Assembly (NCBI GenBank): GCA_017548125.1
Contig: JAFYNK010000075.1
Coordinates: 1-32,003, forward strand
From: Bacteroidales bacterium
GTDB taxonomy: Bacteria > Bacteroidota > Bacteroidia > Bacteroidales > F082
Direction of reading: 5' to 3'
Length of the DNA stretch: 32,003 nucleotides
Shown here: positions 19,766 through 23,350 of the stretch, piece after piece
How positions within the stretch are numbered: position 1 is the first letter of the stretch
Layout: each line of letters begins with the position of its first letter
Program-made: the position numbers and the translations under genes
The notes under the pieces: model-generated
Told to the model about the DNA's origin: nothing
What the model saw: the letters and a program-made list of their open reading frames with translations, nothing else
Databases searched by the model: none

Positions 19766-21091
19766 ATGAAGCGCGTCTTAATCATAACATATTATTGGCC
19801 TCCATCAGGCGGTTCCGGCGTTCAACGTTGGTTGAAGATGTCGAAATATCTGCCTGAAAATGGTTGGCAGCCTGTTATTTACACAGCTGATGGCGCGGAA
19901 TATCCTGTGGAAGATTTATCGCTGGAGAAAGACGTCGCGCCTGAAGCAGAAGTTATCAGACGTCCTATCATCGAGCCTTATTCTTTTTATAAAAAGTTTT
20001 TAGGAATCAAGAAAGATGAGAAGATAAAAGCAGGATTCATCAACGAAGGAAAAAAGAAATCTGCCTGGAAAGAAAACGTAAGTATCTGGTTAAGAGGAAA
20101 TTTATTCATTCCCGATGCACGTTGCTGGTGGGTAAGACCTTCGGTGAGATTCCTTAAAAAATATTTGCAAGAGAATCCTGTCGATGCCATCATCTCAACA
20201 GGACCTCCTCATTCCATGCATCTCATCGCTAAGGAATTACATAAGAAATTTAACATTCCTTGGATTGCTGACTTCCGCGATCCATGGACCGACATTGATT
20301 TCTTTAGTGAATTAAAATTAACAAACAGAAGTCTTAAAAAACATCATAGACTTCAATATCAAGTCCTTACAGAAGCTAATAAAGTCGTGACCGTTGGTTG
20401 GGACTGGGCGAAAGGTTTGGAAAGTCACGGGGCAAAAGATGTTGCCGTCATAACAAATGGCTATGACTTTAATATTGAAGAACTTAAGACAAAATCCGAT
20501 TTGTCGGAAAAATTCACCATGTCGCATGTTGGAATCATAGGTGCAGCAAGAAACGCTACTAAATTCTGGGCGGCTCTCGGTGAACTTATAAAAGATAATA
20601 ATATTCCTGATTTCTCTAACTTATTAAAGACTAGACTCATAGGACAAGTTGACAATTCCGTCTTGATTTCTATAAAAGAAAATAATCTTGAAAATCATGT
20701 CGAGATAATTCCTTATATCCCACATGAAAAGGTTATAATAGAACAAAGTTCATCACAGGTTTTGTTACTTTTTGTTAACAATTCGCCTAACGCAAAAGGC
20801 ATACTCACGGGAAAAATATTTGAATATATGGCATCGGGACGTCCTATCTTAGCAATAGGTCCAAAAGACGGCGACACAGCAATAATTCTCGATGAGACAA
20901 AATCTGGAAGCATCATCGACTTCGAAGATAAAGAAGGAATGAAAGCAATAATTCTTGATTTATTTAATAAATATAAAGAGAATCAACTTGTTACGAAAGA
21001 GAATGAAAGCGTTAAAAAATATTCACGAAGAGCTTTAGCAAAAGAATATGTTAATTTAATTGAGAGGATTTTGAAAAATGAACAACACTAA
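19766..21091 (+). CDS. GT-B glycosyltransferase (GT4-like)
   Basis: The 441-residue cytoplasmic protein has the two-domain GT-B layout. The N-terminal domain shows YYWPPSGGSGVQRW (9-22), the nucleotide-sugar glycosyltransferase glycine loop, and IPWIADFRDPWTD (164-176). The C-terminal domain has a GIIGAARN strand start and an IFEYMASGRPILAIGP segment, the donor-binding E/SGRP motif of GT4-like enzymes. Donor and acceptor cannot be told. A hexose or hexuronic acid donor is plausible given wecB, wecC and a second dehydrogenase nearby. Its 3' end overlaps the next gene by 14 bases, so expression is probably coupled. Confidence 0.9.
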   Translation: MKRVLIITYYWPPSGGSGVQRWLKMSKYLPENGWQPVIYTADGAEYPVEDLSLEKDVAPEAEVIRRPIIEPYSFYKKFLGIKKDEKIKAGFINEGKKKSAWKENVSIWLRGNLFIPDARCWWVRPSVRFLKKYLQENPVDAIISTGPPHSMHLIAKELHKKFNIPWIADFRDPWTDIDFFSELKLTNRSLKKHHRLQYQVLTEANKVVTVGWDWAKGLESHGAKDVAVITNGYDFNIEELKTKSDLSEKFTMSHVGIIGAARNATKFWAALGELIKDNNIPDFSNLLKTRLIGQVDNSVLISIKENNLENHVEIIPYIPHEKVIIEQSSSQVLLLFVNNSPNAKGILTGKIFEYMASGRPILAIGPKDGDTAIILDETKSGSIIDFEDKEGMKAIILDLFNKYKENQLVTKENESVKKYSRRALAKEYVNLIERILKNEQH

Positions 21092-21836
21092 AATAATCAT
21101 ACAAGCGCGAACAGGCTCCACACGCCTGCCTCAGAAAATGATACTTTCTTTCTACGAAAACGAAGGTATTTTCTCATTGCTCTTAAAAAAATTAACAGCT
21201 GCTTTTGATAAAAACGACATCATTCTCGCTACTTCCGTCAATGAAAATAATGACGTCTTGGTTGAGATAGCAGAACGCTATGGCGTCAATTACTTCAGAG
21301 GTTCGGAAAACGATGTGCTTCAACGCTTTATCGACGCTGCCAAAGAATTCAACGCAGAAAATATCATCAGAGTCTGCGCCGACAATCCTTTCCTCGATGT
21401 CTTTTATATTGAACTGCTTATCGAAAAATTTGAGAAATTCAATTGCGATTATCTGTCATACATGACATCCGATGGAACACCTTCAATAAAAACGCACTAT
21501 GGATTCTGGGCAGAAGCGGTGAAACTCAGCGCTTTAGAAAAGGTAAAAACTCTCACTGACGAGAATCTCTATCACGAACACGTCACAAATTTCATTTATG
21601 CAAATAGAGATAAATTCGACGTGAACTTCTTCAATATAATTCCAGAAATTGATAGACATAAGGATATCAGACTCACCATCGACACTCAAGTGGATTTTGA
21701 CATTCAAAAAGAGATTTATGGCAAATTAAATAATTATATCCCAAACTTTACATCTCTTAATGTTATTGATTTTCTTGAAGATAACCCGCATTATTTAGAG
21801 ATAATGAAAAAGGAAATTTTAAAGAATCAGAAGTAA
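21078..21836 (+). CDS. SpsF-type cytidylyltransferase, probable CMP-nonulosonate synthetase
   Basis: The 252-residue protein belongs to the SpsF/NeuA-like cytidylyltransferase group. Visible motifs are QARTGSTRLPQK (9-20, nucleotide-binding loop), VCADNP (99-104, metal-binding Asp), HEHVT (166-170) and RLTIDT (198-203). Enzymes of this group transfer CMP to an ulosonic acid, though several SpsF proteins are uncharacterised. The next two genes encode a NeuB-family synthase and a nonulosonate-9-phosphate phosphatase, so CMP-activation of KDN or a related nine-carbon acid is the inferred role. It overlaps the upstream glycosyltransferase by 14 bases and ends 2 bases before the synthase. Confidence 0.85.
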   Translation: MNNTKIIIQARTGSTRLPQKMILSFYENEGIFSLLLKKLTAAFDKNDIILATSVNENNDVLVEIAERYGVNYFRGSENDVLQRFIDAAKEFNAENIIRVCADNPFLDVFYIELLIEKFEKFNCDYLSYMTSDGTPSIKTHYGFWAEAVKLSALEKVKTLTDENLYHEHVTNFIYANRDKFDVNFFNIIPEIDRHKDIRLTIDTQVDFDIQKEIYGKLNNYIPNFTSLNVIDFLEDNPHYLEIMKKEILKNQK

Positions 21837-21838
21837 TT

Positions 21839-22882
21839 ATGAAAAACGGAACATATATAATAGGTGAAATAGGACAAAATCATAACGGTTCTGTCGATAT
21901 TGCTAAACTCATTGTCGAGTTGATTTCACGACCTGTCAAGGAAGAATATTTCGGCATCGACCTACAACCTATGAACGCCGTGAAAATGACAAAACGTGAC
22001 CTCGCTCATGAATTGTCAGATTCACAGATGTCGCGTGTTTACGACTCACCTAATTCATTTGGAAGGACTTACGGCGAACATCGCGCTTTCCTTGAATTAT
22101 CCGACGAACAACATTACGAGGTTTATAAGTTCGCCAAAGAAAAAGGTCTCGATTTCGTTGAAACATTATGCGCTCCTTCATGCTTGAGCATAATGAAATA
22201 TTTTACTCCTGATTATCTGAAAGTTGCAAGTCGCGACGTGACAAATATTCCTTTATTGGAAGCTCTTGCCGAGACAAAAATACCGATCATCTTATCAACA
22301 GGAATGGCAGGAAAAAAAGAACTCGACGAGGCATTGGAAGTGATAACGAAATATCATAGCGACATTTCAATTCTTCATTGCGTCTCTCAATATCCAACAA
22401 ACCCTAGCAACCTGAATCTCAATACGATAAAATATCTTAAAAACAATTATCCACAATATAAAATTGGTTTTTCTGATCATACAATAGGAATTTCTGCACC
22501 GATAGCAGCAATAGCAATGGGCGCGGAAATCATTGAAAAACACGTCACTATCGACAGAAGAATGAAAGGAACAGACCAAGCAGGTTCTTTGGGTCCTGAC
22601 GGCGTCAACCGCATGATTCGAGATATAAGAATCACTGAAATGTCGATGGGAAAAGAAGAAATATTTATCGAACCTGATGTTTTAAGCAGTAAGATAAAGC
22701 TCGAACGTTCCATTGCTACAAATCGTGATCTTAAAGTAGGCGATGTTATTACAGAAAACGATATTCATCTCTTAAGTCCAGGCGATGGTTTTAAATGGTC
22801 TGAGAGACAGTCTGTTATTGGTAAGAAGGTGAAAATTGAAATACCAAGAAACGAAATTATTTATCCTCAAAATTTAGAATAG
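21839..22882 (+). CDS. NeuB-family nonulosonate(-9-phosphate) synthase
   Basis: The 347-residue protein condenses PEP with a mannose-type sugar, by family membership. Visible features are EIGQNHNG (10-17), HCVSQYP (180-186), GFSDHTIG (210-217), EKHVTIDR (233-240) and a C-terminal SAF domain (about 285-345, starting KLERSIA). The usual VKFQ motif after the first strand is replaced by NAVKMTKRDL (46-55), and the following loop has NSFGRTYGEHRAFLELS (72-88). It is thus a distinct NeuB subfamily and not a typical Neu5Ac, legionaminate or pseudaminate synthase. With the phosphatase next to it, KDN-9-P synthase (mannose-6-P plus PEP) is the best guess. Its stop abuts the next start codon. Confidence 0.9.
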   Translation: MKNGTYIIGEIGQNHNGSVDIAKLIVELISRPVKEEYFGIDLQPMNAVKMTKRDLAHELSDSQMSRVYDSPNSFGRTYGEHRAFLELSDEQHYEVYKFAKEKGLDFVETLCAPSCLSIMKYFTPDYLKVASRDVTNIPLLEALAETKIPIILSTGMAGKKELDEALEVITKYHSDISILHCVSQYPTNPSNLNLNTIKYLKNNYPQYKIGFSDHTIGISAPIAAIAMGAEIIEKHVTIDRRMKGTDQAGSLGPDGVNRMIRDIRITEMSMGKEEIFIEPDVLSSKIKLERSIATNRDLKVGDVITENDIHLLSPGDGFKWSERQSVIGKKVKIEIPRNEIIYPQNLE

Positions 22883-23350
22883 ATGAAGAAACCTAAATTA
22901 ATATTAACAGATATTGACGGTGTCTGGACCGATGGCGGAATGTATTATGACCAAACGGGCAACGAGTGGAAAAAGTTCCACACTTACGACAGCGCTGGCG
23001 TTCTCTTCGCTCACCAAAATGAGATTCCTGTAGGGATAATTACAGGCGAGGATACTGAGATTGTCGCACGAAGAGCTGCCAAACTCAAAGTCGATTATCT
23101 TTTCCAAGGCGTTAAAAATAAACTTGAAATAGCAGAAAAACTCTGTAAAGAATTGAATATCACTTTAGAAGATATTGCTTATATTGGCGATGACTTAGGC
23201 GATGTTGAACTTTTGAAAAACGCAGGCATCTCTGCAACGCCAAATTCAGCTCCTGAATACATCAAAAAAAATGCGCAGATGGTGATGACAAAGAATGGGG
23301 GAGAAGGCGTTTTTCGTGAATTTGTAGAAAAAATTTTAGGAATATGTTAA
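22883..23350 (+). CDS. Nonulosonate-9-phosphate phosphatase (KDN-9-P phosphatase-like, HAD C0 type)
   Basis: This capless HAD phosphatase (155 aa) would usually be labelled KdsC. Catalytic Asp10 and Asp12 lie in LILTDIDG, with Thr54 in ITGE, Lys80, and Asp103/Asp104 in YIGDDLGD. From memory it aligns without gaps over residues 6-71 with BT1713 of B. thetaiotaomicron, the characterised KDN-9-P phosphatase. Glu56, Arg64 and Lys67, described there as sugar-binding residues (Glu56 and Lys67 as markers against KDO-8-P phosphatase), are all present at the same numbers. It should remove the 9-phosphate from the synthase product before CMP activation. The start abuts the synthase stop and the 3' end overlaps the next gene by 7 bases. 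Confidence 0.9.

Follow-up and report, generated by a model that had tools for sequence, protein, structure and literature searches.

The window analysed here, a stretch of 32,003 nucleotides, is one contig (JAFYNK010000075.1, hereafter C67) of GCA_017548125.1, a 2.73-Mb, 97-contig Bacteroidota assembly of a Bacteroidales bacterium (completeness 100, contamination 1.25). The products of three closely spaced genes on its + strand (21078–23350), with gaps of 2 and 0 bases between them, are a CTP-transferase, a NeuB-family synthase and a HAD phosphatase. An initial annotation had assigned them to the synthesis of the nine-carbon acid KDN (3-deoxy-D-glycero-D-galacto-nonulosonic acid). The three open reading frames (ORFs) were found where it had placed them, and the two genes that accompany the phosphatase belong to the families expected (NeuB, PF03102, and CTP_transf_3, PF02348):

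21078–21836, + strand: SpsF-type cytidylyltransferase, 252 aa (PF02348, 82.8 bits), proposed CMP-KDN synthetase
21839–22882, + strand: NeuB-family synthase with SAF domain, 347 aa (PF03102, PF08666), proposed KDN-9-phosphate (KDN-9-P) synthase using mannose-6-phosphate (Man-6-P) and phosphoenolpyruvate
22883–23350, + strand: HAD phosphatase, 155 aa (NF058599; PDB 3e81), proposed KDN-9-P phosphatase

The phosphatase passed NF058599, the NCBIfam equivalog model for KDN-9-P phosphatases, with 272.7 bits (cut-off 180; 272 bits in the whole-genome search). It also passed the generic KdsC/YrbI subfamily model TIGR01670 (136, cut-off 106.95) and failed the KdsC equivalog PRK09484 (127.3, cut-off 208), a cut-off that is not decisive alone, since the KdsC-like protein encoded elsewhere in the same genome (L002) fails it too (131). 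Because TIGR01670 is passed, a generic label would read KdsC; yet the present NCBI library names the gene through NF058599, so the idea that its identity lies hidden behind a KdsC label had to be abandoned. The top PDB match of the phosphatase was 3e81 (E=3.5e-69; 70% identity over 154 aa with no gap), which we take to be BT1713 of Bacteroides thetaiotaomicron, whereas that of L002 was 4hgn, a phosphohydrolase of 3-deoxy-D-manno-octulosonic acid 8-phosphate (KDO-8-P). The PDB labels 3e81 and related phosphatase chains 'Acylneuraminate cytidylyltransferase', which is a misleading name.

Glu56, Arg64 and Lys67 of the window phosphatase have identical numbering in 3e81, as had been claimed; Asp10, Asp12, Lys80, Asp103 and Asp104 are further residues of this protein. 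The mutagenesis reported for these sugar-binding residues, to which the initial annotation had referred, agrees with the presence in the PDB of forms of the 3e81 protein altered at position 56 (4hgq) and at positions 56 and 67 (4hgr). The triad was then counted in the 127 of 144 loci that gave a phosphatase row, without making the rows non-redundant; L001 (the window), L112–L125, L143 and L144 had been excluded beforehand (L121–L124 are repeats of loci already counted, L125 could have been kept, and all five, examined later, carry E, R, K and the synthase residue Ser313 described below). E, R and K were present in all 91 rows with at least 60% identity (85 distinct aligned sequences), in 17 of the 21 rows at 45–60% (D, R, R in the other four) and in 10 of the 15 rows below 45%, where D, R, R occurred four times and Gly, Arg, Met once, in L002. 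The KdsC control for this census consisted of L002 and the PDB alignments of the 3e81 and 4hgn searches rather than a wide KdsC census. The E-R-K rows below 60% identity (27 of 36) include frames of ~390 aa located beside a shorter NeuB, and the three of them that were scanned (L136, L137 and L140) are fusions in which a HAD domain comes after a CTP-transferase and the triad is the same. The Glu56/Lys67 pair was for this reason dropped as proof of KDN. Glu56 and Lys67 do speak against KdsC, but Arg64 is common to L002, and none of the three residues separates KDN from other nonulosonates. The fusions, next to which lies a short NeuB lacking an aligned SAF region, look like another type of nonulosonate cassette of the phosphorylated route within the phylum; L009, L011, L013 and L014 were assigned to this type by length only, L011 being the same gene as that of L140.

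A reference for the whole trio was provided by locus L131 of G456, the one genome in a set of 149 representing the genus of G395 whose phosphatase is 99% identical to 3e81. Because of this neighbour, the L131 synthase was taken to stand for BT1714. The locus encodes a cytidylyltransferase of 249 aa, a synthase of 346 aa and a phosphatase of 163 aa (263.7 bits against NF058599), in the order found in the window, and these share 43%, 73% and 70% identity, respectively, with their window counterparts.

The window synthase scored below the cut-offs of both the NeuB equivalog TIGR03569 (243.9, cut-off 399.65) and the PseI equivalog (204.9, cut-off 340.25), with scores similar to those of the L131 synthase (238.6 and 195.8, respectively), and it matched the SpsE structure 1vli. 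When it was aligned with SiaC of Neisseria meningitidis, Lys53, Lys129, Ser213, His215, His236 and Asp247 were found to be kept, whereas Thr, Cys, Lys and Ser stand in the places of Gln55, Phe112, Phe288 and Arg314, respectively (the Ser being Ser313 of the window protein). These places were examined in 93 cassette synthases including that of the window (the other 92 rows hold 88 distinct sequences) and in 30 control NeuBs, the top-scoring hits of TIGR03569 across 148 genomes from the phylum; 15 of the controls pass the NeuB cut-off. Serine occupied the Arg314 place in all 93 cassette rows, whereas the controls had Arg in 27 cases (all 15 that pass the cut-off and 12 of the 15 below it) and Ser in three. 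Of these three, L170 is the same locus as L007, in which a phosphatase is present as well; L167 and L168 run counter to a strict rule. According to a passage in PMC6795526, Arg314 of SiaC may position the N-acetyl group of N-acetylmannosamine (ManNAc), and the Ala form is inactive; SiaC variants with this residue altered to Lys and to Ala are present in the PDB. The Gln55 place held Gln in 30/30 controls and Thr in 90/93 cassette rows (one Gln, two gaps). The controls keep Phe112 in 24 of 30 cases and are variable at Phe288 (Phe in 7 of 30), so the changes from SiaC to the cassette synthases are not all equal in weight.

Unlike SiaC, the window synthase has a TYGEHR segment at positions 77–82. 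The motif TYG-x-H at 77–81 was found in 91 of the 93 cassette rows (the other two are gapped) and in a single control, again L170, as well as in 8 of 13 NeuB rows below 40% identity. Because several of these distant carriers adjoin a phosphatase domain, the motif may be a mark of phosphorylated sugar substrates; a similar motif occurs in human NANS. A tree of 76 synthases was built from 47 rows, hand-chosen for spread out of 108 from cassettes and other homologues, and from 29 of the 30 controls (without L170). The window and L131 synthases fell in a 34-row clade with support of 100/100, set apart from the 29 controls at 100/98, and none of the branches flagged in the long-branch warning of the tree program lay inside this clade. 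L105 (BPGB01000009.1), a contig titled Candidatus Woesearchaeota, has a cassette synthase beside that of L085; as this synthase sits within the Bacteroidota clade, transfer or mis-binning is likely.

The cytidylyltransferase scored far under the kdsB cut-offs and passed no equivalog model, and a profile search of the PDB matched 6oew and KdsB structures. The name 'SpsF-type' is a presumptive one. Its proposed role as CMP-KDN synthetase is consistent with its family (PF02348) and with its place in the cassette, which is equivalent in 70 of the 80 loci described below. Two allele classes of this gene were observed among the nearest relatives, one formed by the window, L032, L034 and L036 and the other by L033, L035 and L037–L040. 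Identity was 82–97% within the first class and 70–75% between classes, and the adjoining synthase showed 82–97% over all pairs. In the comparison of the window with L033, made over 21092–21836, identity was 67–74% at about 21166–21765 and 81–92% on either side. This drop limited to the cytidylyltransferase gene suggests recombination there.

Conservation of the trio was studied in 80 loci fetched by means of the phosphatase, which are the best 80 of at least 275 relatives and describe close relatives rather than the phylum. The nearest, L032–L040, have phosphatases 92–97% identical to that of the window and come from records titled as Bacteroidales or Lentimicrobiaceae metagenome-assembled genomes, the host being a ruminant wherever the title gives one. 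The relatives closest to the window genes were cassettes of the same three genes and not kdsA and kdsB, which as closest relatives would, according to the initial annotation, have refuted its proposal. A synthase with at least 60% identity was present in 78/80 loci, and the complete trio, on one strand and with its gene order kept, in 70/80. Within these 70 trios, the spacing between cytidylyltransferase and synthase was 150 bases or less in 68, and that between synthase and phosphatase in 54. In five of the ten remaining loci the synthase is cut by the start of the locus or lies within 300 bases of it (L041, L043, L045, L067 and L070); two (L087 and L101) are without a synthase at the 60% level; and in three from Prevotella (L048, L049 and L050) the SpsF-type gene is absent, and right behind the phosphatase lies a PseF-type synthetase (262.2, 261.6 and 256.6, respectively; cut-off 205.7). 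This exchange supports a role of the SpsF-type gene as the putative CMP-activation enzyme. In the same three loci (8480–10914 in L048) the PseF-type gene is followed by genes for oxidoreductase-like proteins of 312 and 260–261 aa, of which the L048 pair was scanned; these might modify KDN further.

The other 16 trios show 563–1030 bases between synthase and phosphatase (L044, L051, L055, L056, L059, L061, L066, L078, L085, L086, L088, L089, L098, L105, L107 and L109). Fourteen of these gaps hold a same-strand ORF of at least 100 aa, which by eye are of acetyltransferase-like, methyltransferase-like and other kinds. At the level of the phylum, NF058599 was passed in 11 of 395 genomes. Five of them, including that of the window, showed a synthase with at least 60% identity within the surrounding 3.4 kb, and at least two of the 11 matches (L009 and L011) lie in long frames of the fused type, L009 by length. 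The cassette is broadly scattered in the phylum, yet uncommon.

The supply of substrate was then considered in the whole genome, where the NeuB-family gene of the window is the only one. A manA gene was detected (127.6, cut-off 116.2). Three Epimerase_2 proteins scored 523.4, 300.1 and 216.1 against wecB (cut-off 210.15, the last barely over it) and 109.1, 65.1 and 53.4 against the NeuC model TIGR03568 (cut-off 235.9), so that no NeuC was detected in the genome. The first of them is the product of 25110–26249 (- strand), which was tried as a NeuC candidate and rejected as WecB-type. The GlcNAc (N-acetylglucosamine) 2-epimerase family (PF07221) had no match in the genome, and the genome's only NanE-family match (PF04131), on contig C2, proved to be a geranylgeranylglyceryl phosphate (GGGP) synthase. 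From these genes, the organism should make Man-6-P, and a source of ManNAc or its 6-phosphate (ManNAc-6-P) was not detected in searches that did not extend to ManNAc kinases. The lack of NeuC, on which the initial annotation had relied, was thus confirmed among the scanned window proteins; absence from a window is a weak argument, and stronger ones come from the clade in which the synthase falls, from the replacement of Arg by Ser and from the presence of manA without a detected source of ManNAc or ManNAc-6-P.

These data make it very probable that the trio is a KDN cassette of the B. thetaiotaomicron type within a surface-polysaccharide locus. The KDN route remains the best reading of these genes, as originally proposed, and is supported mostly by evidence other than that first put forward. 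In the predicted pathway, ManA, encoded elsewhere in the genome, would make Man-6-P; the NeuB-family synthase (21839–22882) would condense Man-6-P with phosphoenolpyruvate to give KDN-9-P; the HAD phosphatase (22883–23350) would take off the 9-phosphate to yield KDN; the SpsF-type cytidylyltransferase (21078–21836) would make CMP-KDN; and a transferase, perhaps the 433-aa protein encoded nearby, would attach KDN to a glycan.

Several points weigh against this assignment. The supply-gene absences rest on a draft assembly in 97 contigs. The triad occurs in the fusions too, so the phosphatase taken alone could serve another nonulosonate, and NF058599 is just passed by the fusion of L140 (181.1 against 180), those of L136 (169.5) and L137 (166.3) missing it. 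The cytidylyltransferase is the least conserved member of the trio, with no equivalog model passed, and the PseF exchange in L048, L049 and L050 might instead mean that a different acid is made there. Moreover, spsF of Bacillus subtilis, the namesake of the cytidylyltransferase gene, belongs to the legionaminic acid route according to a passage in PMC7439481.

One question that follows is whether the cassette makes N-acetylneuraminic acid (Neu5Ac), alone or together with KDN, from ManNAc-6-P by way of Neu5Ac-9-phosphate, Neu5Ac and CMP-Neu5Ac. The synthase is, after all, a NeuB-family protein with a SAF domain, the phosphatase triad is common to the CTP-transferase–phosphatase fusions, Ser at the Arg314 place was also seen in 3 of the 30 control NeuBs, and section 11 of PMC6200933 ascribes some promiscuity to other sialic acid synthetases. 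Against this, the score of the synthase lies well under the NeuB equivalog cut-off, the arginine that may position the N-acetyl group is Ser in 93/93 cassette rows, and NeuC, NanE and GlcNAc 2-epimerase were not detected in the genome; we consider Neu5Ac synthesis improbable.

Still less probable is the production of another nonulosonic acid, either legionaminic-like or a modified KDN, by SpsE/SpsF-type enzymes with the help of the acyltransferase of the operon. The legionaminic route needs no 9-phosphatase, and the synthase clade agrees with the B. thetaiotaomicron-type locus. Aminotransferase, dehydratase and UDP-sugar hydrolase families were unmatched by the six operon proteins, legionaminic genes not having been searched genome-wide. 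What speaks for such a product is the SpsF-type cytidylyltransferase (spsE and spsF of B. subtilis being placed in the legionaminic acid route in the same passage of PMC7439481), the hexapeptide acyltransferase itself and the extra ORFs inside 14 of the 70 trios, which suggest tailoring in relatives. That the genes are instead a second set for KDO-8-P synthase, KDO-8-P phosphatase and CMP-KDO formation is hardly credible: the phosphatase passes the generic TIGR01670 and the cytidylyltransferase is weakly similar to KdsB, but the KdsC equivalog is failed (as it is by L002), the synthase is of the NeuB and not the KdsA family, and kdsA (G000:C82, 367.4 against 314), kdsB (G000:C61, 240.6 against 155.2) and the kdsC-like L002 (G000:C53) all sit elsewhere in the genome.

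The proposed KDN cassette belongs to a series of six tightly packed genes on the + strand (19766–25151) with successive junctions of -14, 2, 0, -7 and -1 bases, followed by two genes on the opposite strand:

19766–21091, + strand: GT4-type glycosyltransferase (glycosyltransferase family 4), first of the packed run (PF13439, E=3e-07), with a 14-base overlap with the cytidylyltransferase gene
23344–23850, + strand: hexapeptide-repeat acyltransferase, possible glycan O-acetyltransferase (PF00132), with a 7-base overlap with the phosphatase gene
23850–25151, + strand: 433-aa protein, candidate glycan transferase (invariant R273-x-H275-P276 and D157)
25110–26249, - strand: WecB-type non-hydrolysing UDP-GlcNAc 2-epimerase (TIGR00236, 523.4 bits, cut-off 210.15)
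26260–27468, - strand: WecC-type UDP-ManNAc dehydrogenase (NF008286, 510.2 bits, cut-off 459)

A GT4-like gene also adjoins the cassette in L032–L040, L064 and L080. The NCBIfam matches of the hexapeptide acyltransferase were all below cut-off (the best 25 of 38 were inspected, the top one being a lipopolysaccharide O-acetyltransferase). WecB and WecC together would yield UDP-N-acetylmannosaminuronic acid (UDP-ManNAcA), perhaps destined for the same glycan as the products of the operon. Just past them lie genes for a TviB-like nucleotide-sugar dehydrogenase (27664–28935; 510.3 bits, below its cut-off of 592) and, adjoining it, an RlmI-like methyltransferase (28954–30153; 277.9 bits, below its cut-off of 712). 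In the left part of the window, housekeeping-type families predominate.

No match to a sialyltransferase family was found among the scanned window proteins, small and antisense ORFs not having been scanned. Neither Pfam nor NCBIfam yielded a match for the 433-aa protein at E 0.001, and its profile gave nothing credible against the PDB, the one match (E 0.22) being a mitochondrial complex I subunit. Homologues were found in 15 of the 80 loci, nine of which are the nearest relatives; the one in L064 matched PF04464 weakly and under its cut-off (17.9; cut-off 22.1), and the one in L080 had no such match. R273, H275, P276 and D157 are invariant in an alignment of 14 of these proteins, and the His-Pro motif recalls CMP- and CDP-sugar transferases. 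These features make the 433-aa protein a candidate glycan transferase, possibly a user of CMP-KDN. A bolder proposal is that it founds a new CMP-KDN-using glycosyltransferase family of the His-Pro type and, with the acyltransferase and WecB/WecC, builds an O-acetylated surface glycan containing KDN and ManNAcA in gut Bacteroidales; we regard this as speculative and, on balance, doubtful.

Compared with known systems, the window genes share the HAD and CTP-transferase superfamilies with the KDO-pathway set KdsC, KdsA and KdsB, and they lie under the KdsC and KdsB equivalog cut-offs. With the SpsE/SpsF pair of B. subtilis the link is the match of the synthase to 1vli; the window operon differs in having a phosphatase, and no legionaminic-route companions are present among its six proteins. 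No difference was found between the window phosphatase and the proteins described by NF058599, a model that also barely admits the fusion L140. To distinguish a KDN cassette from genes for KDO or Neu5Ac, the useful features are the clade of the synthase, Ser in place of SiaC Arg314 and the supply genes, and not the phosphatase triad by itself. According to a passage in PMC7845648, Kdn withstands the sialidases of bacteria and viruses; its potential producers in the gut are therefore of interest for host–microbe work.

The closest counterpart is the KDN cassette of B. thetaiotaomicron, which was reportedly described by Wang and co-workers in 2008 and is said to comprise the BT1713 phosphatase, the BT1714 synthase and a CMP-KDN synthetase. 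In L131, which represents this type, the three kinds of enzyme and their order match those of the window. Proteins of the PF04464 and PF07388 (polysialyltransferase) families are encoded near the L131 cassette, whereas that of the window is accompanied by the GT4 gene, the hexapeptide acyltransferase, the family-less 433-aa protein and WecB/WecC. The B. thetaiotaomicron cassette is treated in passages of PMC6200933 and PMC10483923. Those of PMC6200933 describe BT1714 as a Kdn-9-P synthase with a Km for Man-6-P of 1.4 mM, state that the Kdn-9-P phosphatase accepts Kdn-9-P, and set out a three-protein CMP-Kdn route with three accessions. No part of the cassette is claimed here as unpublished. 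Its kind is already known from this human gut bacterium, and the window provides a well-supported further example.

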